Below the pieces are notes generated by a model. That model was not told where the DNA came from. It searched no databases and saw only the letters and a program-made list of their open reading frames with translations. From a virus, in IMG/VR virus record IMGVR_UViG_3300022723_000216, positions 1-58,253 of that record: a stretch of DNA of 58,253 bases; one strand, 5' to 3'. Position numbers and translations under genes: made by a program. Shown here one piece after another: positions 610 to 48,420 of the stretch. Each line of letters begins with the position of its first letter. Position 1 is the first letter of the stretch.

Positions 610-1410
610 CTAGTTCAGGCAGGCCGCGGCGAGCTGGTTGGCAGCCACCTCCGACGCGATGACGTTAGTAGCTTCCTCGATGTCGACGTTCACCTCGCCC
701 ACGTCGGCCGTCACGTCGCCCACGACGTCGACCGTGGCCCCCTCGATCTCGACGTCGCCGATGCCGCCCAGGATCGAGTCGAGCACGTCGTTGACGGCGT
801 CCTGCACGTTGCCGGAGACGCTCGATAGCTCGATCCCGATCGAGCCGATCGCCACGTGGATGTCGCCGATCGTGATCCGCACGCCGGCGTCCACCTCGTC
901 ATCCGGCTCCGGTGCCGGCGGCGTGACGTCGACCACCGACACCTCGGCCGACCCGAACGTCTGCTCGGCCGGATCGAGCAACGTCGACGGCCGGGCGATC
1001 AGTGCGCCGGTGGGCACCACCGACAAGAGCGAGCTTTCCACCGGCGCGATGGCCTCCAAGGTCACCGTGGCCACCTCTTCGACGACGTCGTCGCCGACGG
1101 GGCGACCTTTCTGGATCTCGGCGAACGCCGCGCCTTCGATCGTGACCAGGCCGGGCTCGCTGGTGTCGATGGCCTGTCGCAGCGGCAGATGGTCCGTAAT
1201 GCGGGCGTCCGCCACGCGGAACACCTGCGGGTCGTACTTGAGGCCCAGGGCGATGCTGCCCAGGCCGAACAAGGTGTCGTCTTCGTCGTCGACCGTCAGC
1301 GTGGCGTCGACGGTGTCGCCCACTTCGAGCGGCCCGAGCAGGTCGTCGCCCAGGTCGAGTCCGAACGCAGCCGGCGGGCAGCGGTCGTTTAACGCTTCGA
1401 TTCTTCGCAT
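610..1410 (-). CDS. Cohesin-domain-like protein
   Basis: The protein has 266 residues. Residues about 25-150 resemble the cohesin/carbohydrate-binding beta-sandwich fold: DTVDATLTVDDEDDTLFGLG, then GLKYDPQVFRV, then a VEEVATVTLEAIAP strand. The C-terminal half is very acidic, rich in Val, Ile and Asp, with repeated amphipathic stretches (VQDAVNDVLDSILGGIGDVE, VVGDVTADVGEVNVDIEEA). No signal peptide is visible. The start is supported by AAAGGGAGTGAG upstream of the ATG. Cohesin-like modules in phages are plausible adhesion or virion-assembly parts. The fold assignment is from pattern only. Confidence 0.6.
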   Translation of the reverse strand: MRRIEALNDRCPPAAFGLDLGDDLLGPLEVGDTVDATLTVDDEDDTLFGLGSIALGLKYDPQVFRVADARITDHLPLRQAIDTSEPGLVTIEGAAFAEIQKGRPVGDDVVEEVATVTLEAIAPVESSLLSVVPTGALIARPSTLLDPAEQTFGSAEVSVVDVTPPAPEPDDEVDAGVRITIGDIHVAIGSIGIELSSVSGNVQDAVNDVLDSILGGIGDVEIEGATVDVVGDVTADVGEVNVDIEEATNVIASEVAANQLAAACLN

Positions 1411-9834: not shown

Positions 9835-10310
9835 GTCAGCTTCTCCAAATCGTCGAGGCTCGTGATCGGCATGCCCTGCGGCGGCCCAGGGTTCGTCACG
9901 GGGTAGATGAAGCGATAGAGGTCGCCACCGTCGGTGTGGTGCGTGGTCGTGCAGCGGAACTTGAGCTTCCGCAGAAAGATCTGGGCGACCACGTTGTTCT
10001 CGGGGACGTCGGCAAACACGCAGTAGCGCTGCGCCAGCCGCGCCACGTGGATCATCGGCCCGACCAGTTGGGTAGCGATGCGTTGCATCCGATACTCGGG
10101 CGCGACGCCAATGTCAGCCAGGCAGAGCGCCGCGCCGTTGTCGCGGAACTGCGCGTAGGCCACCAGCTCGGAACCAACCGGATACACCACGGTCAAATGG
10201 CCCTTGAGCCGCACCGGCGTGTCGGCACCGCGGCAGGTCATCCGCAGCCGGCAGACCTGGTTGACGTCGTACGGTTGCATCCAGCGCTGCGGGTGTGGCA
10301 GGTCAATCAT
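9831..10310 (-). CDS. GNAT-family N-acetyltransferase
   Basis: This 159-residue protein has the GNAT core. Strand 4 is AALCLADIGVAPEYR. The acetyl-CoA P-loop region RMQRIATQLV is in the expected Q/RxxGxG/A-like position, although it is degenerate. The C-terminal part AQIFLRKLKFRCTTTHH is typical. The substrate is unknown. Phage GNATs modify host proteins, DNA bases or antibiotics. The ATG at 10310 follows GGGAGACGACG. Confidence 0.75.
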   Translation of the reverse strand: MIDLPHPQRWMQPYDVNQVCRLRMTCRGADTPVRLKGHLTVVYPVGSELVAYAQFRDNGAALCLADIGVAPEYRMQRIATQLVGPMIHVARLAQRYCVFADVPENNVVAQIFLRKLKFRCTTTHHTDGGDLYRFIYPVTNPGPPQGMPITSLDDLEKLT

Positions 10311-11328: not shown

Positions 11329-11805
11329 TTATCCGCCTGATGGCGCCTGCTGGCGCGAATTGACTGGTTCGGTGAACGCCCGCTCGACGTCCCATCCCCG
11401 CTTGCGGAGCCGCGATTCGATGGCGACGCGGCCTAGCCCGAGGACTTCACACCATTCGGACAGGCAACGCGTTTCGCCGCGAAACGTTATCAGATGGTTT
11501 TGGCGGGTGTTGCGTGCCTGCGTCTTCTTGTCCGCCCAGGTGCAGTTGCCGGGCTCGTAGCCCTTCGCGTTGTCCAGGCGCTCGATCGAATGCTGCGATG
11601 TCGGACGCGGGCCCATGTCAGCCAGGAAGTTGAGAAAACTCTCGTCCCATCGCTGGCAAACACGAATCCCTCGCGCGCCATAGTACGGGTACAGCCTATG
11701 CTTCGGGTTGCTGCAACGGTGCCGCATTCCCTTCCAAGTCCCGTACTCCGGCGTCCGTGAAAGCCTGTGCTCCTTTCCTCTCGTCCTCTTCGCGGTAGAT
11801 GGCAT
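11329..11805 (-). CDS. HNH-type homing endonuclease-like protein
   Basis: The 158 residues match the phage HNH/AP2-like pattern: SRTPEYGTWKGMRHRCSNP, then YPYYGARGIRVCQRWDESF, NFLADMGPRP and the SIERLDNAKGYEPGNCTWAD motif, followed by KKTQARNTRQN. Such proteins are usually free-standing homing endonucleases that invade phage genomes. The C-terminal NLITFRGETRCLSEWCEVLG part is a small DNA-binding repeat. Its 5' end overlaps csrA by about 110 bases in another frame. Confidence 0.8.
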   Translation of the reverse strand: MPSTAKRTRGKEHRLSRTPEYGTWKGMRHRCSNPKHRLYPYYGARGIRVCQRWDESFLNFLADMGPRPTSQHSIERLDNAKGYEPGNCTWADKKTQARNTRQNHLITFRGETRCLSEWCEVLGLGRVAIESRLRKRGWDVERAFTEPVNSRQQAPSGG

Positions 11806-11950
11806 CTTGCACCTCTCGTCGATGGATTTCGATTTCCTTGGGGGCGTCAAAACCGAGCCGGACGCGGTCGCCGCGGATCTCGACGACTGTAACTTCGATA
11901 TTGCCGTTGATGACGACCCGCTCGTCGCGCTTGCGGCTGAGAACTAGCAT
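11696..11950 (-). CDS. csrA: CsrA carbon storage regulator homologue
   Basis: This 84-residue protein opens with the full CsrA fold: MLVLSRKRDERVVINGNIEV, VVEIRGDRVRLGFDAP and IEIHRREVQDAIYRE. The RNA-contact residues R44-like (HRREV) and the L4/R6 N-terminal strand are present. CsrA binds GGA motifs in leader RNAs and blocks or activates translation, so a phage copy may reprogram host metabolism or time phage mRNAs. The last 25 residues (KGAQAFTDAG onward) are unusual and overlap the downstream HNH gene out of frame. Confidence 0.9.
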   Translation of the reverse strand: MLVLSRKRDERVVINGNIEVTVVEIRGDRVRLGFDAPKEIEIHRREVQDAIYREEDERKGAQAFTDAGVRDLEGNAAPLQQPEA

Positions 11951-11981
11951 GGTGCTTACCCGTCCTTCCGTGTGTTGGTGG

Positions 11982-12251: not shown

Positions 12252-12416
12252 CGCCTGGACTCCTTTCGTGCCAGATCCCGGCGGCCCGACCCGTTCAATT
12301 ACGCTGGGTCCAGATCGAGCCGCCGGGGTCCGCTACAACAAAGACCGGCCGCCGCACCGAGCCGAGTTAGGGCAGGCGGTAGCGGCCGGGCCCGGCAACT
12401 TTGGGGAGCCAGGCAG

Positions 12417-12491
12417 TAGCGCCGTCAGGATTCGAACCTGAGACCTCGTGGTTATGAGCCACGCGAGCTGACCAGACTGCTCTACGGCGCA
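12417..12491 (-). tRNA. tRNA-Met (CAT), initiator-like
   Basis: The 75-nt cloverleaf has the D-arm GAGC...GCTC, anticodon arm CGTGG-CTCATAA-CCACG (anticodon CAT) and T-arm TCAGG-TTCGAAT-CCTGA. The acceptor pairs at six positions but has a T:T mismatch at 1:72. It also has A11:T24. Both are marks of initiator tRNA. The third initiator mark (three G:C pairs at 29-31/39-41) is only two-thirds kept. The 3' CCA is not encoded. Confidence 0.92.
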
Positions 12492-12954: not shown

Positions 12955-13245
12955 ATGGCTGAGCACCTTGCCCAATTGTTCGCGCTGGTGGTGGTGGCGA
13001 ACGTGATCGTATTCGCCCCGCTTGCCGTCGTCGCAGCCGAAGTGCTGGAGCGACCGAACCGCCCGGCGATCCTGCTGGGCGTCCTGATGGGGCCGGTCGG
13101 CCTGATCTTGATCGGCTTCCTCGAGCCCAGGCATGTGGCGCGTTGCCCGGCCTGCTTCGCGCCGGTGCGCTACCATGGCGCAACACGGTGCCGAGCGTGC
13201 GGCGATTCGCTCGCTGACGATCCACTGGCGTCGCTCGACCGATGA
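12955..13245 (+). CDS. Two-helix membrane protein with zinc ribbon
   Basis: The 96 residues contain a hydrophobic N-terminal segment (LAQLFALVVVANVIVFAPLA), a second one (AILLGVLMGPVGLILIGFL), and then a cytoplasmic zinc ribbon CPAC...CRAC. The ATG at 12955 follows GAGGTGG. It opens a plus-strand trio that runs against nearly all other genes, and its stop overlaps the methyltransferase start by 4 bases. Function is unknown; membrane display or envelope modification is plausible. Confidence 0.7.
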   Translation: MAEHLAQLFALVVVANVIVFAPLAVVAAEVLERPNRPAILLGVLMGPVGLILIGFLEPRHVARCPACFAPVRYHGATRCRACGDSLADDPLASLDR

Positions 13246-13802
13246 AGCACTACATCGACGTCGGCGCGTACAACGGCGATTCGGTGCGTGAGTTTCTGCA
13301 GCCGCGCAGCCGCCGCCGGACGTTTCTGCCCAGAGACGATGCGCCCACATACCGGATCATCGCCATTGAGCCGTGCGCGACGAACCTCAAGCTGCGCGAG
13401 TCCTGCCCGACCGCCGAGGTGATCGAGAAGGTTGCGTGGACGCACGACGGCCACGTTGACTTCTACGAGGTGCCACCGCCGCATTCGCAGACCGTGGCCA
13501 GCTGCGTCGCGTCGCTGCCGTTTATCGGCGATCGCTCGCCGGCCCGGCTGGTGCCGCTGCCGTGCTTTGACTTCCCTCGCTACCTGGCGGACCTCGAGTC
13601 CGAATACACCGTCGTCAAGATGAACGCCGAGACAAGCGAATACCTTTTGCTGCCGCGGATCCTAGACCTGGGCGCGCGGGTCGACGAGCTGTACGTCGAG
13701 TTCCACCACCTCGGCCATCCGGAATGGGACGCTCGGCGCGGGGACATCACGCGAAGACTAGAGGCCGCGGGCGTCCAGGTGTTCGATCGGTGGTGGCGAT
13801 GA
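13242..13802 (+). CDS. FkbM-family methyltransferase
   Basis: This 186-residue SAM-dependent methyltransferase has motif I IDVGAYNGDSVREFL at the extreme N terminus, the acidic ribose-binding IIAIEPCATNL, VEKVAWTHDGHVDFYEVP-like strand 3 (split here), the TVVKMNAETSE region in place of the usual KIDVEGAE, and the ELYVEFHHLG strand near the end. FkbM enzymes methylate hydroxyl groups of sugars or polyketides. Beside two glycosyltransferases, capping of a surface or virion glycan is the natural guess. Confidence 0.8.
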   Translation: MKHYIDVGAYNGDSVREFLQPRSRRRTFLPRDDAPTYRIIAIEPCATNLKLRESCPTAEVIEKVAWTHDGHVDFYEVPPPHSQTVASCVASLPFIGDRSPARLVPLPCFDFPRYLADLESEYTVVKMNAETSEYLLLPRILDLGARVDELYVEFHHLGHPEWDARRGDITRRLEAAGVQVFDRWWR

Positions 13803-13900
13803 GCGAGCCCGTCTACCTGCCGCGGCGCGTAGCTCTTCGCCTGGCCGGCGCCGTGGCACTCGGACTCGCGTTTCTGATCTACAGGCTGCTCGTGCGCTAG
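13799..13900 (+). CDS. 33-residue single-pass membrane peptide
   Basis: It encodes MSEPVYLPRRVALRLAGAVA followed by a hydrophobic GLAFLIYRLLV end. It starts at an ATGA overlap with the methyltransferase stop, which supports translation. Its stop overlaps the end of the convergent minus-strand glycosyltransferase gene. Function is unknown. Confidence 0.55.
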   Translation: MSEPVYLPRRVALRLAGAVALGLAFLIYRLLVR

Positions 13901-15936
13901 CCGGCCTTCTTGGCTTCCTGGGCCAGCCGTTCGTCTTCGCGCTGGATCGCCAGGTCGATCAGTGAGCCGACCGGGTCGTGCTTGTCGTGGATCTGCCGGG
14001 CCACGCCGCCGGTCAACCAGGAGAAGCCGCCCTTGATCGCGGTCGATGCTTTCTGCGACCAGCCCCACCGCTCCCAGTTTTCCAGGATCTGGCTGCGGAG
14101 TTCGTCGCGTTCCCGACGGCAGCCTTCCACCCCCAGCATGTCCATGTAGTTCGCCACGCGCTTGCATGAGCAGGTCGGCGATGACTGTGCGCCGACCTCT
14201 TCCATCATGCCGGTCAACTGGGTGCCCGGCCCGTATCCGCGCGGCCACAGCAGAATCGCGACGTCGGGGCGGTCCCGATCTTGGCAGCCCAGCACGGTCA
14301 GGCCGGTATCGGCTCCCGTGTGTGAGGCAATGAACCACGCCGGGGTGTCGTCCAGGAACCCTTTGATCTGCGGCGCGTAGCCGGGCCGCTTGTTGTCGAG
14401 CTGCATGCCGTTGCGGGCCGTGTCGTGCAGTACGATCCAGCGTCGCACGCGCGGAGCCCACCGCTTGAGGTCGGCCGTCAGCCGCTCGTAGCAGTGCGGC
14501 GTCTTGAACACCAGCAGATCAGCGGCGCCTTCGAAGTCGGGCTCGTCGGGGAAGTCGTGCATCTGCGTCCGCGACCACTCAGCGGGGATGCCGGCCAACT
14601 GCGGCAGCAGCTCGTTGACCATCCGGTTGTCTTTGGCGCCCTCGAATAGGTAGCTGTGCAGGTTCCCCTGTGCGCCGGCAGCGAGCGCAACCGTCGTCTC
14701 GTGGAACCTGGTGAATTCGACGACGCGCTCGCTCTGCTCGGCCATCTCGCGCAGCTTGTCCATGTGCTTACCGAAGTAGGCCGACGTGTGTTTCGTGTCG
14801 GTGAAGATCGTTTCCATCGTGACCGTCTTCCGCACGGCCTGCGGCTCGTCGACGTGCGCGACCGGGTCGGCCACCAGGTGATCCCACCAGGCCGGATTGA
14901 GCAGGCCGCTGTCCACGAAGTGCGCCCGGACTGGCTCGACGTCGAGTCCCAGCTCGAGGTGCCCCAGCACGTAGTTGCGGCACTTGTCCCAGTTGGTGAG
15001 CCGATACTTCACGCCGCCCGGGCGTGCGAAGCGATGCAACCATTTCAGAAACCCCAGGCATAGCACCTGGCCGCCGGCGCGGCGCACCTTTTCGTGGATG
15101 TAAAGCTCTTCGCCGCCGAAGCCGCGGAAGTGCTCGTTGAAGCCCGGCCAGTCCGTTTTGCGGAACGCGAACAGCCCCAGGCCCTGGCCCGGCACTTCGA
15201 ACTCGTCGGCGTCGTCGGAACCCAAACGGCGGCAGCCTCGTTTGGCTAGCTGCTGTTGATGGCCCGCCCACTTGCCGGGCAGGACGGCACCCCACAAGTC
15301 CGGCCCCGGCGTCGTCGATACGTCGCCGAAGTCGTATAGCGGAAGCGGCTCGATTCCCGTGTTCAGCGTGACGTAACGCGCCGTGCCATCCTGGTTTTCG
15401 ACAACCGAGAAACGCTTGCCTTCGTATTCCCAGGCTTGGCCCCAGACGCCCCACATGCCCTCTCGCCACACGGGGTTAAAGTGCGTTTCGAACGAACCGA
15501 AGTGGTCCATCAGAATCGGGCCGCTAACGATGCCGCGGAAGTCCGGGCGCGCGTCGAACCACGCGATCAGCTTTTGAATCGTGCCTGCCGGTAGCATCAC
15601 GTGACTATCGAGGCACAGCACGATCTCGCCGCGGGCCTCGCGGATGGCGCGCTCGCGTGGGGCCGCGGTTCCCTGGGGCGACGGCATCAGTACATAGCGC
15701 GTGCCCAGCGTGCCGCGCACGAACTTGCCGTCTTTGAAGTCCTTCAGCTGTTGCTTGCTGGCCGGCGCGTCGGGCTTGTTGTCGACGACGACGATCTCGC
15801 ATTGCGACAGATCGTGGTACAGCCGCAGGGCCTGCACGGTGAAATAGACGCCGTCGAAGTCGTCGGCGGTAGCCATCACGATCGACAGCTTGGGTATGGG
15901 CGGGGTTGGGTTGCTCATAGTCTTGGTCGGGCTCAC
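13897..15936 (-). CDS. GT2-type glycosyltransferase fused to a methyltransferase-like domain
   Basis: The protein has 679 residues. Residues about 15-320 form a GT-A glycosyltransferase: KLSIVMATADDFDGVYFTVQ, EIVVVDNKPDAP, an acidic metal site CLDSHVML, and a FGGEELYIHEKVRRAG acceptor-side motif. Residues about 380-560 resemble cephalosporin-hydroxylase-type SAM methyltransferases (LLVFKTPHCYERLTADLKRW, RRWIVLHDTARNG). The rest is helical and charged. GTG at 15936 overlaps the stop of the GT6 gene, indicating coupling; an ATG at 15918 is an alternative. Likely role: building and methylating a glycan on the adjacent mucin-like protein or the capsid. Confidence 0.8.
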   Translation of the reverse strand: MSPTKTMSNPTPPIPKLSIVMATADDFDGVYFTVQALRLYHDLSQCEIVVVDNKPDAPASKQQLKDFKDGKFVRGTLGTRYVLMPSPQGTAAPRERAIREARGEIVLCLDSHVMLPAGTIQKLIAWFDARPDFRGIVSGPILMDHFGSFETHFNPVWREGMWGVWGQAWEYEGKRFSVVENQDGTARYVTLNTGIEPLPLYDFGDVSTTPGPDLWGAVLPGKWAGHQQQLAKRGCRRLGSDDADEFEVPGQGLGLFAFRKTDWPGFNEHFRGFGGEELYIHEKVRRAGGQVLCLGFLKWLHRFARPGGVKYRLTNWDKCRNYVLGHLELGLDVEPVRAHFVDSGLLNPAWWDHLVADPVAHVDEPQAVRKTVTMETIFTDTKHTSAYFGKHMDKLREMAEQSERVVEFTRFHETTVALAAGAQGNLHSYLFEGAKDNRMVNELLPQLAGIPAEWSRTQMHDFPDEPDFEGAADLLVFKTPHCYERLTADLKRWAPRVRRWIVLHDTARNGMQLDNKRPGYAPQIKGFLDDTPAWFIASHTGADTGLTVLGCQDRDRPDVAILLWPRGYGPGTQLTGMMEEVGAQSSPTCSCKRVANYMDMLGVEGCRRERDELRSQILENWERWGWSQKASTAIKGGFSWLTGGVARQIHDKHDPVGSLIDLAIQREDERLAQEAKKAG

Positions 15937-16694
15937 GAGAAAACAACGCGACCGCGCTTGATGTCGAACAGGTCGCCGCGGCGAGCGCGTAGCGCCGCGA
16001 GCTGTTCATGAATGGCAAACTCCGGCCGCCGTTCGATCGCCAGGCCCCCCTTGTCGCTCACCGAGAACGGGAACTCGTGACATGGTACCACAAGCGTCGG
16101 CTTGTTGTGGTGCCAGTACCAGTTGAGATAGCTCTCGTCGTTGACGGCGGCCTCGTATCCGCCCTCGCGGTCCGCGCGCTCGCGTTGCACGAGTTCGCGG
16201 CACATCTCCGCGACGCGGGCCGACGTGCCTCCAAAGAAGGCGCCGTAGCAGTAAACCTGGCCGGGCGCGTCGCTGGGCACGCAGCAATGGCTGTCGGGAT
16301 TGCGGTCAAACGGCTTGTGGCGAACGTCGCAGTAGTGCTGCCCGGCGACCAGCTCGCCCACGAACCACTGGCTGGTAAAACGTCGCTGGATGTTCGTGTC
16401 GGCATCGAAGTAATAGGTGTAGGCTTCGCCGGCCTCAGCCACCCGACCGACCGTCTCGATCTTGGCGTGGTCCGCCTCGAGCCAACTGCGGTGCTGGGTT
16501 TGTCGCCAGACCACCTGGCCGCGCGTTACGTCGAGGTGCTCATAGGGATCGACGTCGCTGAACAGGTGGAACGTGACACGGTGGTTGAACTCGGGGGCGT
16601 CCATGACGCCGCCATAGAAATGCATCCAGCGCCGGATAAACCGCAGCGCGAGAAGCGCGTAAGCGTTGGTTCCGATGACCGTGATGTTGATCAT
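15933..16694 (-). CDS. Glycosyltransferase family 6-like (ABO-type) enzyme
   Basis: The 253-residue protein has GT6 hallmarks: INITVIGTNAYALLALRFI near the start, FHLFSDVDPYE, a DxD-like YYFDADTNIQRRF, and the acceptor/donor motif VNDESYLNWYWHHNKP. GT6 enzymes add alpha-Gal or alpha-GalNAc to glycans. Bacterial members lack the stem and membrane anchor, as here. The ATG overlaps the stop of the mucin-like gene (ATGA), so the enzyme is co-produced with its presumed substrate. The donor sugar cannot be told from sequence. Confidence 0.85.
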   Translation of the reverse strand: MINITVIGTNAYALLALRFIRRWMHFYGGVMDAPEFNHRVTFHLFSDVDPYEHLDVTRGQVVWRQTQHRSWLEADHAKIETVGRVAEAGEAYTYYFDADTNIQRRFTSQWFVGELVAGQHYCDVRHKPFDRNPDSHCCVPSDAPGQVYCYGAFFGGTSARVAEMCRELVQRERADREGGYEAAVNDESYLNWYWHHNKPTLVVPCHEFPFSVSDKGGLAIERRPEFAIHEQLAALRARRGDLFDIKRGRVVFS

Positions 16695-18748
16695 GGCGGC
16701 GGCGTCGTCGTGGCGAATGTGCACTGGCCACCCGCCGACCCTTTGGTGCAGCAGTCTGCGGCCTGCGATTCGTAAGTGATCGGATTGCACGGCTGCCCCA
16801 GCTGCGCCCGTTGCGCCGGCGACAGGTCGCACTGACAACAGGCTGGGTCGAAGAAAATGTCGCACGGCAATTCGACAACGGTGCCTTCCGGGCAGACAAG
16901 CCCGCAGCCTCCTGGGCCGCAGGTTTCCTCTTCGCATGGCTCGGCCGTAGTCGTGGTGGTGGTGCTCGTGGTCGTGGTCGTCGTGGTGGTCGTTGTCGTG
17001 CTCGTGGTGGTCGTTGTCGTCGTGGTCGTCGTGGTGGTCGTTGTCGTGCTCGTGGTGGTCGTTGTCGTCGTGGTCGTCGTGGTGGTCGTTGTCGTGCTCG
17101 TGGTCGTTGTCGTCGTGCTCGTGGTGGTCGTTGTCGTGGTGGTCGGCGGATCTTCGTGCAGGCACGGCGCGACGTACACCTCGCAGTCATCGTTCGGCGG
17201 CCGGCCCGGGTACGCGCAGAAGCACTCCCCGCAGTCGTCGTCGTCGAGCTGCCAATTGCCGCCGCCATCGTCGCTGTAGGTGCAGCCTGACCCACACTCG
17301 GGCGTCGTCGTGGTGGTGGTCGTGCTGGGCTCCGGCGTCGTCGTGCTGGGATCGCACGGATCGGGGGTTCCGGTCGCACACTCGCTGCACGCCCGCGATC
17401 GACACGGAACGGTAACGTAGGCACCGCAGGTACAGGATCCCGTCGGCGCCGGGCCGGCAACGCAGTCGGCCGCCGTCCATAACGTGCATCCATAGCACTG
17501 GTAGGGATTCGTGCCGCAGTCGGGGCAGTAGTTGTTGCCGCTGCAGCTGCCGCCGGCGTACCGCCAGGTCGGGTTCGTATAGCCGGCGCAGACATACGAG
17601 TGACCACCCCCGCACGTATCGTCCGGCCGCGGCGGGCACGTGGTCGTGGCGGGCACGCAGGGCTCGCAGTGCGATTGGCAGGGGTCGATCGATGGCGCCG
17701 GTCCGCAGCCTCCGCACACGTCGTTGCCCATGCAGTCCACGGCCCCACCGCCGCACGCCTCGACCCGGATGATGCCTAGCACGGGGTCGTTGTACCAACA
17801 GCACTGGCCGCAATCCGGTGCCGGCGTGGTCGTGCACTCCGGCGTCGTGGTGGTCGTGCTGGGGTCCGCCGTGGTCGTGGTCGTTGTGCTGGTGGTGCTG
17901 GTAGTCGTGCACTCGATCGGAGGCTCGTTCATCGAGTCCGATCGCTCGCAGCGCGTATAGGTGCAGTCCCCTTCGGCCGTCGGGCAGAACGTCGGATACG
18001 AGCAGCGCCATTCTGGCTCGGGCGTCGTGGTGGTCGTTGTCGTGCTGGGATCCGGCGTGGTCGTCGCTTCGATGCATTCGCACGGATCCGGCGTGGTGGT
18101 CGTCGTGTTGGCGTTGGTGCAACAGTTCTCGTCGTCGGGGATCCAGACCAACGACCCGTCGGCGACGAACTTGCACTCGCAGTCGGGCGCCGGCTCCGGC
18201 GTGGTCGTCGTGCTGGTGGTGCTGGTAGTCGACGACGTGGAATCGAGCAGCCGCACCCACAGCTCCTGGATGCCGGTCCCGCTGACGGGCGACAAGATCT
18301 CGACGGGCCCGGACGCGGCGCTGCTGAGAACGTGCTCGCCTGGCGTGGGGGTGGCGTGCGTATGCGCCGCGCTGGTCACGTTCACGCGCGCGATGCAGCG
18401 ACCGCTAATCTGCGCGCGGCCTTCCTCGCATGCGGGCAGTGGGTCGGTCAGAATCGCGTATCGCAGGTGAGCGAACGATGCCGGCGTGTTGCCCTCGAAT
18501 GCCGGATCGTAGGGGGGCATTTCGATCAGCAGGTGATCGCCCAGCTGTACGACGTCGCCGGCTTCTCGGTCGCCGCACGTTTGGTTCCGTACCGAGACGG
18601 CGTCGAGCTCTGTGCCGTGCGTATCGGCACCTGGCGGCCGCGGGCCCCTTCGGTATCCCTCACGCATGTCAACCAGGTCGTTGACGAACTCCGCCTCGCG
18701 CAGAGGCGTGTCGGCCAGTGGCTGGCCTGGCGATACCTTCTTGGCCAT
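16691..18748 (-). CDS. Mucin-like protein with poly-Thr tracts and Cys-rich modules
   Basis: The protein has about 685 residues. The N-terminal 190 residues look globular (PLREAEFVNDLVDMREGYRR, VVQLGDHLLIEMPPYDP). Then Thr/Ser/Pro tracts alternate with small Cys-rich modules (CECKFVADG, CGQCCWYNDPVLG, CGPGGCGLVCPEG). The longest Thr tract runs about 70 residues. The N-terminal part, encoded next to tail genes, probably attaches to the virion. Dense Thr is ideal for O-glycosylation, and two glycosyltransferases follow in the same transcript. The start is taken at the ATG (18748) in a TGATG overlap. Confidence 0.75.
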   Translation of the reverse strand: MAKKVSPGQPLADTPLREAEFVNDLVDMREGYRRGPRPPGADTHGTELDAVSVRNQTCGDREAGDVVQLGDHLLIEMPPYDPAFEGNTPASFAHLRYAILTDPLPACEEGRAQISGRCIARVNVTSAAHTHATPTPGEHVLSSAASGPVEILSPVSGTGIQELWVRLLDSTSSTTSTTSTTTTPEPAPDCECKFVADGSLVWIPDDENCCTNANTTTTTPDPCECIEATTTPDPSTTTTTTTPEPEWRCSYPTFCPTAEGDCTYTRCERSDSMNEPPIECTTTSTTSTTTTTTADPSTTTTTPECTTTPAPDCGQCCWYNDPVLGIIRVEACGGGAVDCMGNDVCGGCGPAPSIDPCQSHCEPCVPATTTCPPRPDDTCGGGHSYVCAGYTNPTWRYAGGSCSGNNYCPDCGTNPYQCYGCTLWTAADCVAGPAPTGSCTCGAYVTVPCRSRACSECATGTPDPCDPSTTTPEPSTTTTTTTPECGSGCTYSDDGGGNWQLDDDDCGECFCAYPGRPPNDDCEVYVAPCLHEDPPTTTTTTTTSTTTTTTSTTTTTTTTTTTTTTTSTTTTTTTTTTTTTTTSTTTTTTTTTTTSTTTTTTAEPCEEETCGPGGCGLVCPEGTVVELPCDIFFDPACCQCDLSPAQRAQLGQPCNPITYESQAADCCTKGSAGGQCTFATTTPPP
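16947..17145. repeat. GTC/GTG triplet repeat tract encoding poly-Thr
   Basis: About 200 bp consist almost only of GTC, GTG, GTT and CTC triplets on the plus strand, that is ACN (Thr) and occasional AGC (Ser) codons on the minus strand. Sub-blocks such as GTCGTGCTCGTGGTGGTC recur. The tract is prone to slippage and length change. Confidence 0.9.
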
Positions 18749-19548
18749 CACTCAAATCCAAACACATCGGCGAAAGCGATTGAGTCGTAGATCCGGTGGA
18801 TCGTCACCTGCCGGGCTTTCTGGATCCGCCTCTGGCTCACCGTGCGAGGTGTAAAGATCACGTCGAGCAGGTGATGCCCTTTCTTCACGATGCCAGCGAT
18901 GTCGCCAACCGACAGGCCGGTCGCATTTTGGCTGGCGAGCACTTCCAGCGCCACCTCCGATTCCGAGTCGCTGCCGGTTCCTGACGCACCGATTAGCAGC
19001 AGTTCCTCGGCTTCGAAGCCGCGCCACGGCAAGCTGTTGGTGTGGGCCGTGGCACCGGCCAAGGCGCGGGCCAGCGACTCGTCGACGACGCCCTGCGGGT
19101 ACCGATAGGTGTACGTCATTCGCAAGGCTGGGATGTACACGTCGGCACCCTCGACGTCCCCATCTTTATTGACGCCGATCGCATTGTTCTCGACGGCGGT
19201 CTCTCCGGGGGCTGCATAGGTGTCGACGACTTCTTTGGAGGCCCGGAGGCGGAGTGTAGCGCCGCCAGCAGAGAACCCGAATCCGACACTGCCGACGTCG
19301 CGCTTGCGCTGCCCGTAGGGCGCGGTGATGATGTATTGAGACCAGCCTTCGGGGTCGACGCTGATGGGCTGCCGCCACAGCTGGCCGACTTGCGTGAAGA
19401 CGCTGGCGGGCAACGCTTGGAGCGCGTAGGCGGTGACCGTCGTCTCGTCGAACTCGCCGCTGGCATTATAGCGCAGGGTGAGCGACGGCGGCTCCAGAGT
19501 GATAGAGCGGCTGTCTGGGCGTTCGTCGAATTGAAAGATCTCGCTCAC
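18748..19548 (-). CDS. Putative tail or baseplate protein downstream of the tape measure
   Basis: This 266-residue protein follows the tape-measure gene with a 4-base overlap, the position of the distal tail/baseplate hub gene in siphoviruses. It has beta-rich sequence (SITLEPPSLTLRYNASGEFD, PALRMTYTYRYPQGVV) and a conserved-looking VGFGFSAGGATLRLRASKEV stretch. I do not recognise a specific family. Structural role is inferred from synteny. Confidence 0.55.
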   Translation of the reverse strand: MSEIFQFDERPDSRSITLEPPSLTLRYNASGEFDETTVTAYALQALPASVFTQVGQLWRQPISVDPEGWSQYIITAPYGQRKRDVGSVGFGFSAGGATLRLRASKEVVDTYAAPGETAVENNAIGVNKDGDVEGADVYIPALRMTYTYRYPQGVVDESLARALAGATAHTNSLPWRGFEAEELLLIGASGTGSDSESEVALEVLASQNATGLSVGDIAGIVKKGHHLLDVIFTPRTVSQRRIQKARQVTIHRIYDSIAFADVFGFE

Positions 19549-22091
19549 TTGAACACGGCCTCCCGTCTTTGCCGCATCATCTCCTCGTGCTGCTTGCGGT
19601 TCAGGTCGCGGATCTCCTCGAGCGTCCGTTGCTCCTTGCTTGTGCCAGACACCCCCTCGCGCCCGCGGGCTTCAGCCGCCGCCGCTGAGAACGTAGTGAA
19701 CACCGCCTCCTTCGCCCCATCGACTCCGTCACGCCGGCCGGCCTGCGCCTTGAGAAGCTCGAACTTCTCGACGATCGAATCCGTCTCCAGACCGGCGTCG
19801 ATGGCCTGCATCATCTCCTGCTCGAATTGCAGGGCGAGCCGCGCCAGTTCCTTGTCGAGCTCGCTTAGGTCCGGGTCGACCTCGATCCGCACGCGCTCCA
19901 GGTCCATCATCTGTTGGATCTCAGAGTTGAGCTTGTCGGTAGCCTCCTGCGCAAGCCGCTCGTCTTCACGCTTCCGCACATCAGCGATGGCCGCCGCAGC
20001 GTCGGCCTCCACTTGGAAGTGCTCGGCCGGATCGAACACACCGGCCTCGTCGAGCAGCTTGCGACGCTCGGCGGCGAGCTCCTGGATGTCCTTGATCTCC
20101 TGCTCGACGCGCGTGCGACGCTTACGGGCGAACTCTTCCTCGAGCTCGTCGAGACGCTTGGCGGCGTCCCCGGCGTCAGCCTGACGCTGCATGTTGGTGG
20201 AGGCCTGGTCGGCTGCCTGCTGATTCTCGCTGGCAGGGGCGGCCTCGTCAGCCGTCGCCCCGCCAGTGATGGCACCAGCACTGCCGGCGTCGAGCGCATT
20301 GCGGCGTTGCTGTAACTTATGCAGCTGCCGCTCCAGGGCCGTGAGGTCGTTCATGATCCCTTCGGCGCCGGACGTTGCCCCGGGCATGAACAGCCGCAGC
20401 GTGTGCCGCCAGGTCGCGTTGGTCGCCTCGAGCGCCTGGTTGGCCTCGGAAATGTTTTTGCGCACTTCGGCCATCTCGCGGCCGATCTCCATGTCGGCCT
20501 GCTGCCGCATGACGTCGAGCAGTTGCCCGTAAGCACCGCGCATGCCCTCGATCTCGCCGGTCGCCGAGTTGATCGACAGTCCCAGGTCACCGTGGCGTTG
20601 TTCCAGCTGGTCGATGATGCCCGCCGCCTCGCGCATCTCGGCGCTGGTGCGACTTTGCTGGTTGGCCAGCTGCTCGAGGCGTTCGAACAGAGCAAGGTCC
20701 GATGCGCGCAGCTTGTCGGCCTCCTCACGAGCGTTGCTCATCTCGCGGGTCAAGTCGGCGGTCACTGTTACCAGCGCGTGCACGCCCACGGCAGTCGCCG
20801 CCAGCGCGGTCAACGCCACCACGACAAGCCCAAGCGGAGAGAACAGGGCAGCAATCCCGCCCAGAGCGATTGACACGGCGCCGGCCGTCAGCCCCAGCGC
20901 GGCAAACCCGGCGCCAGCCACACCGATGCCGGCGGCCAGCTTGACGAGCGACTGCACGAGATCCGCGTTTTCCTCGATCCATTGGGTAGTCGCGCCAGCT
21001 ACCTCGGTCAGCCATTGCCCGAACTTCATGCCGTCGCCCTCGAGCACTTCGCCGATCTTGATGGCGACGCCTTCGGTCGCGCTCAGCAGGATCCGCAGCA
21101 CGCCGCCCAAGCCGGCGTCCATCTCGGCGGCTGTGGACGCCGCGGCCCCCTCGGCATCACGCAGCGCGTCGGATAGCTCCTGGACGTTGACGACGTTCTT
21201 GCTGATGGCCGATGCGGACGTGATGCCCAGCAGGCCGAACGCTTCGTTGAACTTGGCCGCTCGCTCGCCGGTCCCCAGTTCCGCGGTCGCTTTATTCACT
21301 TCGTCGAGCACCTGCACCAGCGGCCTGGCGTTGCCGGCTGCGTCGCGGAACGAGACCTTGAAGATGCCTTCCAGCTTCTCAGCATCGGCGCCTGTGACCG
21401 TGAGCAGACGTCGCAGGGCGGTACCCGCGGCAGAGCCCTGGATGCCGACGTTGCCCAGCGCACCGAGGATCGCCAGCGTGTCCTCGATCGACATGTTGAA
21501 GTCGGCTGCCACCGGGCCGGCGTAGCTCAGCGAGTCGCCCAGCGATTCGACCGTGTTGAAACTCTTGTTGGCCGCGACCGTCAAAGCGTCCGCCACGCGC
21601 GTGGCATCACCGGCCTGGAGGCCGAACTCCCGGATGGCGGCCGCCATGATGCCGCTGGCCATGGTGGCGTCGGTGCTCGTGGCTCGGGCCAGGTTCAGGA
21701 CGGACGCCGTCATGGCATCCACCTGGTCGGCAGTGAAACCGGCGCGTCCCAGTTCGGCCATCAGCGCCGCCACCTGCACGGCGGTGAAGCTGGTCGTGCG
21801 GCCGAGCTCCTTGGCCTTCTGCGTCAGGCGTTCAAACTCCTCGGCGCTCGACTGCGAGACGGCCTTGACCTCGCGCATCTTGTCGTCGAAGTCGGCGAAG
21901 CGCTTGGTGGCCAGAGCAACCGGCGTGAGCATCACGATGCTGGCCGTCATCATCGAGCGGCCGAGCGTGCCGATGTCGCTGGCAAAGTCCCGCATCTGCC
22001 GGCGCGCGTTCGCCAGGCCACGCTGGAAGCGCGAATTCTTCGTGTATAATTCGACGTATGCCGCGCCGGCTTTGATATCTGCACGTGCCAT
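19545..22091 (-). CDS. Phage tail tape-measure protein (TP901 family)
   Basis: The 848-residue protein sets tail length. The N-terminal part shows the TP901 core: FQRGLANARRQMRDFASDIG, MLTPVALATKRFADFDDKMR, REVKAVSQSSAEEFERLTQK and AEEFERLTQKAKELGRTTSF with FTAVQVAALMAELGRAGF. A glycine/alanine-rich hydrophobic segment (VAGAGFAALGLTAGAVSIAL) lies mid-protein. The C-terminal third is charged coiled coil (EEEFARKRRTRVEQEIKDIQ). This size predicts a fairly short tail compared with phages of similar genome size. Confidence 0.92.
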   Translation of the reverse strand: MARADIKAGAAYVELYTKNSRFQRGLANARRQMRDFASDIGTLGRSMMTASIVMLTPVALATKRFADFDDKMREVKAVSQSSAEEFERLTQKAKELGRTTSFTAVQVAALMAELGRAGFTADQVDAMTASVLNLARATSTDATMASGIMAAAIREFGLQAGDATRVADALTVAANKSFNTVESLGDSLSYAGPVAADFNMSIEDTLAILGALGNVGIQGSAAGTALRRLLTVTGADAEKLEGIFKVSFRDAAGNARPLVQVLDEVNKATAELGTGERAAKFNEAFGLLGITSASAISKNVVNVQELSDALRDAEGAAASTAAEMDAGLGGVLRILLSATEGVAIKIGEVLEGDGMKFGQWLTEVAGATTQWIEENADLVQSLVKLAAGIGVAGAGFAALGLTAGAVSIALGGIAALFSPLGLVVVALTALAATAVGVHALVTVTADLTREMSNAREEADKLRASDLALFERLEQLANQQSRTSAEMREAAGIIDQLEQRHGDLGLSINSATGEIEGMRGAYGQLLDVMRQQADMEIGREMAEVRKNISEANQALEATNATWRHTLRLFMPGATSGAEGIMNDLTALERQLHKLQQRRNALDAGSAGAITGGATADEAAPASENQQAADQASTNMQRQADAGDAAKRLDELEEEFARKRRTRVEQEIKDIQELAAERRKLLDEAGVFDPAEHFQVEADAAAAIADVRKREDERLAQEATDKLNSEIQQMMDLERVRIEVDPDLSELDKELARLALQFEQEMMQAIDAGLETDSIVEKFELLKAQAGRRDGVDGAKEAVFTTFSAAAAEARGREGVSGTSKEQRTLEEIRDLNRKQHEEMMRQRREAVFK

Positions 22092-45072: not shown

Positions 45073-46347
45073 TTACTTCACCTTGAGTTTGCTGATGTCC
45101 AGCGGCAGCGTGTCTCCGAGCTTCACTTCGATGCCGTCGATGAACGCCGAGGGCACGGCGTCGGCGTCCCATAGCTCGAAACGCCAGGGGGCGAGATGCG
45201 GCTGGATCTGCGCGGCCAGGGCTGGGTAGTCGGCGGGTTGCTCGAGCGCGGCGATGCGTCCGACCAGCGCGTGAAGCTCGGCCTTGAGCTGCGCCAGGTC
45301 GCCGTGGGACGCGGCGAGCTGCGTCTCCAAGATCGTGATCCGCCCGCGCAATTCGCACACCAGACGCGCATCGCACCCGCAGCACTCGCCGCCACAGCCC
45401 GGCTTGGCGGGACCGGTGGGTGTGGTCGTGGGAGGCGCTGTCGTGGGAGGCGCTGTCGTGGGGGGCGGCACTGTCGATGGCCGCGGCGTCGCTGGCGTTA
45501 GATGGGGCGTGGGCGACCGCGGCGGCATCGGCGCGACCGTGTCGCAGTCGCTGCGCCGCGCCGGATTCATGCGCGGAGCATTGCGAAACTGGCCGGCCAC
45601 CAGCGTCGTCGGCTGGCTCCCCTCGAAGACCCAGCGGTTCCAAGCGGTCTGGAGCGCGCGCACGTTCTTAAAGCCGTAGTATTCGTGCGTGGCGCGGTTC
45701 CAGTCGTCGTCGCCCAGCCCGTCGGCCAGGAACGCCACGAAGTGCCGCTTGCCGCCGCGGTCGACCAGGTACGCGACCAGCGAGTGTCCCTGGGCGTACA
45801 GCGGCAGGACGTCGTGTGGATACTCCCGCATGCCGAACATCCGCTCAAAGCTGATGCCGCGCCCGGTTTGCAAACACTGAACCAACGTGCGCTGCATGCC
45901 GGCGCGCACCGCCGGGCCTTCGACCAGTGTGGCGGCGCCCTCATCGGCCCAGCGTGGCAGCGGGCGGCGGAAGTGCGTGGCCAGGACGGTGTGCAGCACT
46001 TCGTGGGGCAAAGACGAGGCCAGCAGCGTCTCGAGCGCAGCGGCCTGGATGTACATCCGCCAGCCGTACACCTGGCCGCCGGAAAACTCGAACTGCGTCG
46101 CGCCGCCCGAGCCCAGGTTGTCGGCGATCGCGGCGCGGATCGGGCAGGGCTGTTGCCAGGCCGGGAACTCAGCACCGATCCATTCCTGGGACAACTCACG
46201 ACGGAACCGCTCGGCGTGGTCGCCGATCTGGCGCGCTGCGGGGGCGGTCGGCGCCTCGACGACGAAGTTGGCCGTACGGTAGCTGGCGCCGCCAGCGGGC
46301 CGGATGCCGAGCAGCAGGACGACGGCCATGATCGCGGCACGTTTCAT
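45073..46347 (-). CDS. Secreted peptidase-MA-like protein with coiled-coil tail
   Basis: The ~424 residues start with a signal peptide (MKRAAIMAVVLLLGIRPAGG). Residues ~80-230 hold a gluzincin-type zinc site: HEVLH for metal and base, and WADEG downstream for the third ligand (LPRWADEGAATLVEGP). This pattern is common in planctomycete secreted proteins. A Pro/Thr linker (PPPTTAPPTTAPPTTTPTG) leads to Cys-rich CGGECCGC and a coiled coil (LETQLAASHGDLAQLKAELH). It may degrade host envelope or sit on the virion. The start overlaps the thioredoxin gene by 4 bases. Confidence 0.75.
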   Translation of the reverse strand: MKRAAIMAVVLLLGIRPAGGASYRTANFVVEAPTAPAARQIGDHAERFRRELSQEWIGAEFPAWQQPCPIRAAIADNLGSGGATQFEFSGGQVYGWRMYIQAAALETLLASSLPHEVLHTVLATHFRRPLPRWADEGAATLVEGPAVRAGMQRTLVQCLQTGRGISFERMFGMREYPHDVLPLYAQGHSLVAYLVDRGGKRHFVAFLADGLGDDDWNRATHEYYGFKNVRALQTAWNRWVFEGSQPTTLVAGQFRNAPRMNPARRSDCDTVAPMPPRSPTPHLTPATPRPSTVPPPTTAPPTTAPPTTTPTGPAKPGCGGECCGCDARLVCELRGRITILETQLAASHGDLAQLKAELHALVGRIAALEQPADYPALAAQIQPHLAPWRFELWDADAVPSAFIDGIEVKLGDTLPLDISKLKVK

Positions 46348-47849
46348 TGAATCGGCTTCTCCTCCCGCGACAGTCGCGAGTAGTGCGAAGCGGGATGCAG
46401 GTGGGGGTCGAACCAGGCCACGATGCCGGCTTGCAGAAACGCCTGGCGGATCTGCACGGGAAGGTCGAACCCCAGCACCGAAACGGCGCGTGGCTCGACC
46501 GGGTGAAACGAAAAGATCCCATCGGCGCTGCCCCGCACGTGGCCGTACCAGCCGCGCTGGGCGTCGAAGTGTCGCGCCGAGACGAGCGTGGCATCGTGGC
46601 ACCGCCGGCAGGCCACGTAATCGCTGCCCATGAACGTGCCGTCGTAGTTTTGCGGGACGATGGAAAACGCCTGTCGGCTGGTGGGCGCGAACGCGTGGCC
46701 CTCGCCCTCGTTGGGGCTGGCCCACCAGGCGCCCTCGGCCGACTTGAACGGCGTCGAGTCGAGCAGGGCGGCCGCCGTCGCCTCGGGCAGGGCCGGGAGC
46801 TCGTCGACCAGCGCGGTCCCGTCGAAGCCGGGGTGCGTGCGATGCCTGCCGACCAGCCGTTGCTGCCTGAGGTGCGTTCGCCGCGGAACCGATTGCGCGG
46901 TCTGGGGGTCGACCTCGGCCAGCCGGGCTAGGAATTCCTCGCGCGTGGGGAACGGCCGGAAAATATCGACGTCCCAGTAGTCCTTGCGCCGCTTGCGCAC
47001 GCGGATCTCGAACGTGTGGGTCACGCCGCGCGAGTCGGCCAGCGTCAACACCTCGGCAATGACCGTGCCGACTGGAAAGATCCACTTCAAGCCGACGTGG
47101 GCGCCGTGCGGGTTGTACGGCAGTCGCTCGCGCCACAGCACGACGGGCCAGCGGACGCCGTTGGCCGCTTGGGGTAGCGCTAGCATCTTGAAGCCGGCCA
47201 CGCGACCTTCCGCCCGGTCGCTGCCACCTGGCATGAGCCAGGGGAAATCGACGTTGGGGTTGCCGCCAAAGCCGTCGGGCAGGCCGTCGTCGGTCGGGTC
47301 ACCGCTGAGGTTGTTCAGCGGCGAGTGGAACGTGCCGTGGAACTGGTAGGCGGCCGGTATCTCGCGGTCGCTGTAGTACAGGGTCGACGGGTCGAGAAAC
47401 AGCGCCTGCATGTCCTTGTCGTCGAGCGCCGGCAGCGACCGGCGGCAGGCGTCGAGCTTGGCAGCCGACATGATCTGGAACCCGCGCGGCTGTTCGGCCG
47501 CGCGCTTCTTGCCCGGTCGGCCGAGCAGCTCTACCAACCGCGCTTCGCTCGTGGCGCCCACCACGCGCCCGGTGATCCGGCCCTCGGTGGCGACCAGAAA
47601 CGTGGGCAGGCCCTTGATGTCGTGCGCGGCCCATTCGCTGGGGACGCGCTGGCTGCAATCGACGTTGACCACCTGGTGGCCGGCGGCCGCGATGCGTGCG
47701 ATCACCGGCTTCATGCCCTGGCAGGGGCCGCACCAGCTGGCAGTGAACGTGTACAGCACCGTCTCGCCGTGACAGAGGCACGCGCGAAGCAGTCCGATCA
47801 GCAGGACGCCGACCAGCACGCTCAGTCGAATTCGATGCGCTTCGCTCAT
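46344..47849 (-). CDS. Exported thioredoxin fused to a CxxCH-containing domain
   Basis: The 501 residues begin with a signal/anchor segment (RIRLSVLVGVLLIGLLRACL). Residues ~28-130 are a thioredoxin fold with the active site FTASWCGPCQGMKPV and cis-Pro IKGLPTFLV. A ~250-residue domain of unknown fold follows (GFGGNPNVDFPWLMPGGSD). Near residue 425, VACRRCHDA is a c-type heme attachment-like motif. The protein is probably a secreted redox enzyme. Heme binding is only suggested by the motif; a distal Met or His ligand cannot be assigned. Confidence 0.75.
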   Translation of the reverse strand: MSEAHRIRLSVLVGVLLIGLLRACLCHGETVLYTFTASWCGPCQGMKPVIARIAAAGHQVVNVDCSQRVPSEWAAHDIKGLPTFLVATEGRITGRVVGATSEARLVELLGRPGKKRAAEQPRGFQIMSAAKLDACRRSLPALDDKDMQALFLDPSTLYYSDREIPAAYQFHGTFHSPLNNLSGDPTDDGLPDGFGGNPNVDFPWLMPGGSDRAEGRVAGFKMLALPQAANGVRWPVVLWRERLPYNPHGAHVGLKWIFPVGTVIAEVLTLADSRGVTHTFEIRVRKRRKDYWDVDIFRPFPTREEFLARLAEVDPQTAQSVPRRTHLRQQRLVGRHRTHPGFDGTALVDELPALPEATAAALLDSTPFKSAEGAWWASPNEGEGHAFAPTSRQAFSIVPQNYDGTFMGSDYVACRRCHDATLVSARHFDAQRGWYGHVRGSADGIFSFHPVEPRAVSVLGFDLPVQIRQAFLQAGIVAWFDPHLHPASHYSRLSREEKPIQ

Positions 47850-48160
47850 CGCATGTGGGTCCAGGGCCGTTGCCGGATGCCCAGTGCGCCGCGCACGACG
47901 CGGCCGGCGAAGTAGGGCAGCGAACCGGGCTGCGGATAGCGCGAGGTGTACAGCGGGCGCCATGCGGTGCCCTCCTCGGAGCGGGCGAGCATCACGTAGC
48001 GTCCGGTGGTCACGTCGTAGGCCATCATGCAGGGCACGCAGCCGCCGGGCTGGCACGCCGGGCCGGCGGCCGGTGGTTGGGGTTGCGGCTGCTGTGCTGG
48101 GGCGATCGCGGCGGCACTCAGCACGACGACAAAGACGAGCAGTAGCGAGACCAGTTTCAT
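47846..48160 (-). CDS. Small secreted Cys-rich protein
   Basis: The 104 residues start with a signal peptide (MKLVSLLLVFVVVLSAAAIA, cleavage near APA-QQ). The mature part has a Pro/Gln stretch and clustered cysteines (CQPGGCVPC), a possible target for the coupled thioredoxin gene. The genes overlap by 4 bases. Confidence 0.65.
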   Translation of the reverse strand: MKLVSLLLVFVVVLSAAAIAPAQQPQPQPPAAGPACQPGGCVPCMMAYDVTTGRYVMLARSEEGTAWRPLYTSRYPQPGSLPYFAGRVVRGALGIRQRPWTHMR

Positions 48161-48210
48161 GTCGCACTCTCCATAAGCTTGGGCAGGGAGCCGTGTGTGG
48201 TCGACGGGTT

Positions 48211-48420
48211 TCATTGTTGTGGATTGGGCATGCCGGTGTAGGTGATATCGCCTGGTCGCACGTAGGCGAAATCGGATGGTCCGCCAGTCGCCATGTGCGG
48301 TCCGAGTTTGGTACCGAGGGGCGGCGTGGCGCTGGGAAGGCAATGCGGCAAAAGCCCACGGGCAAGTCCGTCACGCACGCCGTCTTGATACCCGCGCTCG
48401 TATTCCGGCCCGTTATCCAT
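48211..48420 (-). CDS. Hypothetical protein, 69 aa
   Basis: This small protein starts NGPEYERGYQDGVRDGLARG, a pattern of YxxGYxDGxxxG seen in short phage proteins of unknown role. It lies between the secreted cluster and the small genes upstream. Confidence 0.5.
   Translation of the reverse strand: MDNGPEYERGYQDGVRDGLARGLLPHCLPSATPPLGTKLGPHMATGGPSDFAYVRPGDITYTGMPNPQQ

Follow-up and report, generated by a model that had tools for sequence, protein, structure and literature searches.

Introduction

Polypeptide GalNAc-transferases are the animal enzymes that initiate mucin-type O-glycans. One of them, GALNT1, has a DxH motif, and in bacterial GT6 enzymes NxN replaces DxD (PMC4202792). O-GalNAc glycosylation of Ser and Thr is said, in the abstract of PMC5504323, to be absent from bacteria. 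In phages, virion glycosylation has been described for mycobacteriophages, in which phage-encoded glycosyltransferases (GTs) and a methyltransferase modify virion proteins (Freeman et al. 2023, as summarized in PMC11600133, PMC12619734 and PMC13313380), and annotated GT6 genes are already present in cyanophages. In a full-text search of open-licence papers, neither dedicated GTs for Thr-rich phage proteins nor GALNT-like phage enzymes were found to have been reported; since only open-licence papers were covered, this absence is not proof.

Here, we describe a locus in a 58,253 bp virus record from IMG/VR, derived from a tailed phage with planctomycete kin, in which a Thr-rich structural protein is encoded together with two GTs. 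The whole record, at its full length, is referred to in the following as the window, and coordinates refer to it unless a locus is named.

Results

Gene organization of the cassette

The minus strand of the window is annotated with a lambda-type portal, a protease, a terminase and a tape measure protein (TMP). The TMP gene (19545–22091, minus strand; PF10145, 147 bits with a cut-off of 33.2; PHROG 28, tail length tape measure) is the first in a chain of five overlapping genes, followed by those for a 266-residue protein, P5 (18748–19548, minus strand), the Thr-rich protein P0001, the GT6 enzyme P0002 and the GT2 enzyme P0003. The P5 gene overlaps both of its neighbours by 4 bp. An earlier note on this DNA had described coupling of the Thr-rich gene to the GT6 gene by ATGA and of the GT6 gene to the GT2 gene by GTGA; both are borne out, the former read directly in the sequence and the latter derived from the ORF coordinates. 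The 4-bp overlap between the TMP and P5 genes extends the chain to five genes, beyond those in that note, and because the overlaps reach up to the TMP gene, the enzymes belong, by position, to a late structural operon. The phage's own GT genes lie beside structural genes, as would be expected for phage virion glycosylation.

The earlier note had also placed an FkbM methyltransferase at the far end of this unit, a claim that did not hold up. The corresponding ORF (13242–13802, plus strand) had no Pfam match and scored 18.2 bits against TIGR01444, which has a cut-off of 37.7. It is convergent with the chain and therefore lies outside the operon. Its membership being doubtful, the ORF was rejected as part of the glycosylation unit on account of its weak score and opposite strand.

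Several other features of the window were recorded. A phage-encoded CsrA is found a few genes from the cassette (11696–11953, minus strand; above the NCBIfam equivalog cut-off for TIGR00202), and a tRNA-Met (12416–12491, minus strand) separates the cassette from the module that follows. A tRNA-Ser was predicted on the other strand (9930–10014, plus strand); of the two tRNAs, Rfam backs only tRNA-Met. A Cohesin-like domain at 610–1410 (minus strand) scored slightly under the Pfam cut-off.

The Thr-rich protein P0001

P0001 (16691–18751, minus strand), the proposed glycosylation substrate, is 686 residues long when read from GTG at 18751 or 685 residues from ATG at 18748, in agreement with the ≈685 residues given previously. 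It contains 153 Thr, 43 Ser, 72 Pro and 59 Cys, arranged as Cys-rich beads set apart by Thr tracts, and the same architecture is found beside GT2 relatives in other loci. Thr/Ser/Pro tracts of up to about 70 residues had been reported; the longest Thr/Ser run that we found spans 66 residues (537–602; 16946–17143, minus strand), compared with at most 10 in 2000 shuffles of the same protein. The codons of this tract are mixed (ACG 31, ACC 22, ACA 7, ACT 1 and AGC 5), and its preference for ACG and ACC is that of the phage's other genes, showing that this is a coding tract; the mixed codons rule out a microsatellite. When P0001 was searched against 50,697 phage records, no match was found, in part because low-complexity sequence was filtered. 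Elsewhere in the window, a 676-residue thioredoxin-domain protein (46344–48374, minus strand) could bear on the disulfides of the Cys-rich beads.

The ≈170 residues at the N-terminus of P0001 (18242–18751, minus strand) constitute a domain, here called FN, which is proposed to attach the protein to the virion. A PDB sequence search with FN gave chance matches only. The predicted model, which is of low confidence (pLDDT 66), had its best structural matches to phage capsid decoration proteins and the base of the phi29 head fibre (E 0.007–0.05), with further likenesses to DUF2190, capsid-fibre and preneck-appendage models. The model favours attachment of the FN-bearing protein to the virion. As to where on the particle P0001 would be located, the position of its gene after the TMP gene favours the tail, but the FN model weakly resembles capsid decoration and head-fibre base domains, making the "tail-associated" description in the earlier note uncertain; P0001 might belong to either a head fibre or a tail fibre.

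The two glycosyltransferases

P0002 (253 residues; 15933–16694, minus strand), the gene for which has the ATGA overlap with that of P0001, matched PF03414 with 55.1 bits (6.9e-15; cut-off 25), confirming a previous description as GT6-like. In a PDB search, it aligned with α1,3-galactosyltransferase (α1,3-GalT) and the ABO transferases, and in the alignment with α1,3-GalT it keeps two features of eukaryotic members, the DxD motif (D97-A98-D99) and the catalytic Glu (Glu187, found in NDESYLN). Against the NCBIfam Gltr_6 subfamily it scored 54.6 bits, under the cut-off of 250, which places P0002 in GT6 but outside that bacterial subfamily.

P0003 is encoded by an ORF at 13897–15936 (minus strand). 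Its GT2 domain (14902–15936, minus strand) matched PF00535 with 46.1 bits (cut-off 23.3), and the C-terminal region (13897–14901, minus strand) appears to comprise a methyltransferase-like domain and a helical tail. Of the GT2–methyltransferase fusion proposed previously, the GT2 part is thus well supported. The methyltransferase part is below the cut-off in P0003 itself (Methyltransf_24, 17.2 bits; cut-off 26.3), with support at the family level, where 5 of 34 relatives gave an above-noise match to Methyltransf_24 and 3 matched RMNT_CmcI.

An AlphaFold model of P0003, based on an alignment of 34 sequences, had a mean pLDDT of 84.6. When this model was compared with the PDB using Foldseek, all 50 of the 50 matches listed were polypeptide GalNAc-transferases (best E 6.3e-13), at 13–17% identity. 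D110 and H112 of the DxH motif (D110-S111-H112) are invariant across the 34 sequences of the family, and a GGEE...W-x-H-x-F block is invariant or nearly so. GT-A folds also occur in enzymes with sugar acceptors. A phmmer search with P0003 found no GALNT match, the matches in a profile search were other GT2 enzymes, and PF02709, the Gal/GalNAc-T motif model, was found in only 1 of the 34 relatives, so that P0003 falls outside GT27 at the sequence level. The C-terminus had no ricin-type lectin match by Pfam, in the model or among the 34 relatives, being methyltransferase-like with helices instead. Since the GALNTs are out of reach by sequence and the lectin domain is absent, P0003 is best described as an enzyme that would work like a GALNT, and not as a member of GT27.

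No membrane-spanning segment was predicted in either P0002 or P0003, as would be expected for cytosolic enzymes acting on a virion protein; the idea that they are membrane serotype-conversion enzymes was rejected for this reason. Single-sequence searches of viral contigs found no relatives of P0002, P0003 or P0005, and profiles were needed.

Pairing of GT2 genes with Thr tracts in uncultured phages

A search with a profile (A6) showed that at least 278 uncultured viral contigs encode a GT2 of the P0003 type, a minimum figure given that the scan works with peptide patterns, and 80 loci were kept. A6 relatives were found in only 6 of 392 planctomycete genomes (E 1e-10), and P0003 and two other members of the family had no match in the 50,697 phage records. 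A same-strand tract, mostly dominated by Thr, was present in 39 of the 80 loci and was carried in almost every case by the upstream ORF immediately adjoining GT2, and these loci occur in phages of 33–70% GC. Many of the upstream neighbours are bead-and-Thr proteins that end beside the start of the GT. After deduplication by clustering at 70% identity, 38 loci remained, 20 of which had an S/T tract in the gene just upstream of GT2, compared with 3 of 319 other ORFs (Fisher p 1.9e-19). The long form of GT2 had a tract-bearing neighbour in 14 of 18 cases and the short form in 6 of 23, showing that it would be wrong to expect a neighbouring tract for every relative. Thr runs were seen in 6 of 25 GT2 records lacking an above-threshold neighbour and in 0 of 11 records lacking a GT2 of this type. 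In further copies of GT2 in planctomycete genomes, a tract ORF was found alongside in 3 of 5.

In the reverse test, viral contigs were chosen by their Thr/Ser tracts alone, blind to GTs. A P0003-type GT2 was found within 3 kb downstream in 14 of 94 Thr-tract loci; in the other Thr-tract loci, the GT2 Pfam model matched 4 of 39 immediate downstream genes. Upstream of the tracts were TMP, tail-tip and major capsid genes, among others. The earlier note had proposed looking for the same gene order in other phages, and the pairing does recur across many unrelated phages in both search directions. The complete series of TMP, P5, FN domain with Thr tract, and GT2 occurs in a single viral locus (L270). 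In another phage (L312), a GT6 gene is ATGA-coupled to a P0003-type GT2 gene, this pair coming after a ligase-like gene that has no tract, and a GT6 is also encoded in the record of L259.

A related family of planctomycete prophages

P5 serves as a marker for the phage family, with homologues in viral loci and in Planctomycetota, where 42 of 392 genomes had one; the comparison was centred on a planctomycete genome found through it. The FN domain accompanies P5 in 68 of 72 loci, and 13 P5/FN loci have an S/T tract in the FN protein or in a nearby gene. The neighbours of these tracts are carbohydrate enzymes from unrelated families: GT9 and a methyltransferase in L123; GT4, radical SAM and GT2 in L177; GT4 in L182; two GT32 in L180; pyruvyl transferase, GT32 and a GT25–sulfotransferase fusion in L202; GT32 and GT25–sulfotransferase in L219; and GT2 and TOD1/MUCI70 in L216. 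Counting L124, which was included through its near-identity to L123, a Pfam-level GT was found near 9 of 12 evaluable tract loci, compared with at most 7 of the 46 tract-less loci that had enough downstream sequence (p 1.6e-4, an optimistic value because related loci were counted as independent). The tract loci fall into about six groups, each with at least one GT; the tract-less prophages L130 and L131 also have GTs.

Some additional observations were made in these loci. The GT25–sulfotransferase fusion directly follows an S-tract protein in both L202 (5034–6353) and L219 (4298–5629). Radical SAM/SPASM enzymes are found directly beside Thr- or Ser-tract proteins in L177 (4954–5712) and in the A9 set of Thr-tract loci, and might represent a second modification. 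A family of 300-residue proteins that start with MRENxxDI(A/T)ALQ (L179:3353–4249, L180:3414–4325, L185:3435–4337 and L187:3380–4282) is flanked on one side by a methyltransferase and on the other by an S/G-rich protein; the member that was scanned had no Pfam match. In tract-less planctomycete loci (set A5), Cas_Csd1, Cas5d and BrxC genes lay no more than about 6.5 kb downstream of P5 and FN, indicating that some prophage ends abut defence genes.

Discussion

The best explanation for this locus, and one that we consider likely, is mucin-type O-glycosylation of a virion protein by the phage itself, from attachment of the protein through initiation and extension of the glycans to the formation of a brush. 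The N-terminal domain would attach P0001, a structural protein of beads and tracts, to the virion, and its Thr/Ser/Pro tracts would be the substrate of the phage's own cytosolic GTs. P0003, with its GALNT-like predicted fold and presumptive DxH metal site, is the enzyme most likely to add the first sugar to Thr or Ser; P0002 would then extend the glycan, probably with α1,3-linked Gal or GalNAc, and the methyltransferase-like domain fused to P0003 may cap it. The particle would come to bear a mucin-like brush of O-glycans, which might function in adhesion, spacing or masking.

Alternatively, the GTs might modify glycans on the host surface, leading to serotype conversion or superinfection exclusion, with the Thr-rich protein being an unmodified, adjoining adhesin. 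GTs of temperate phages do alter the host serotype, as stated in PMC12619734, and in some relatives GTs occupy this position although no S/T tract is present. We nevertheless think this unlikely, given the lack of membrane segments in P0002 and P0003, the position of their genes in a late structural operon, the strong positional pairing of GTs with S/T tracts and a predicted fold that resembles that of peptide-modifying enzymes. A scenario that we regard as quite improbable is that the targets of the enzymes are other virion proteins, such as the capsid or tail tube, with the Thr tract serving as an unmodified, flexible linker. GT2 relatives without an adjoining tract do exist, and phage GTs modify the capsid and tail tube subunits of mycobacteriophages, according to the papers cited above, but this scenario would not account for a tract directly upstream of GT2 in 20 of 38 deduplicated loci versus 3 of 319 other ORFs, nor for the tract being kept while the GT families vary. 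Modification of phage DNA, for which virus GTs are known (Pyle 2024, as cited in PMC12619734), is very improbable, since the predicted fold suggests peptide acceptors, the GT genes are coupled to genes for structural proteins, and the families scanned showed no base-hypermodification gene near the GTs. Of these three alternatives, only the first two retain a meaningful probability.

If P0001 is indeed O-glycosylated by P0003 and P0002, then either mucin-type glycosylation itself or an independently invented version of it would enter the phage world. Many Thr-rich proteins in viral metagenomes would gain a role, and the phages would be a source of soluble O-glycosylation enzymes. Given the pairing of Thr-rich proteins with GTs in many uncultured phages, it may be that phages make mucin-like coats of their own, and as the GT complement varies while the tract stays, this would be a modular particle-coating system. 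A bolder, tentative proposal, which we lean somewhat against, is that a large set of uncultured phages carries out true mucin-type O-glycosylation, with GALNT-like initiation on the Thr tracts of virion mucins and with swappable GTs, sulfotransferases and methyltransferases diversifying the coat, so that the process would not be exclusive to eukaryotes.

The cassette resembles mycobacteriophage virion glycosylation, as far as the cited papers describe it, in having phage-encoded GTs with a methyltransferase and a virion protein as the target, here a candidate. In mycobacteriophages, it is the subunits of the capsid and tail tube that are modified, whereas the candidate here is a dedicated bead-and-tract, Thr-rich protein encoded beside a GT whose predicted fold is GALNT-like. 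With the serine-rich repeat adhesins (PMC6973325), it shares a Ser/Thr-rich protein, a cytosolic GT that initiates (or, in the phage, would initiate) on Ser/Thr and further GTs that vary between strains, all in one cluster. Those proteins are Gram-positive cell-wall adhesins, exported by SecA2/Y2 and primed by GtfA/GtfB, whereas the phage cassette is part of a structural operon and has a different candidate initiating GT; no gene in the cassette region was annotated as SecA2 or SecY2 in the general family annotation. With the GT27 polypeptide GalNAc-transferases, P0003 has in common the predicted GT-A fold, the DxH motif, a GGE-containing block and a Thr/Ser-rich candidate substrate, but it differs in having a methyltransferase-like C-terminus in place of a ricin-type lectin domain and no detectable GALNT sequence match. 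Finally, P0002 is clearly homologous to the GT6 enzymes, including ABO, α1,3-GalT and the cyanophage GT6, with the positions of the DxD motif and the catalytic Glu aligned; what sets it apart is that its gene is coupled both to the gene for a Thr-rich structural protein and to that for another GT.
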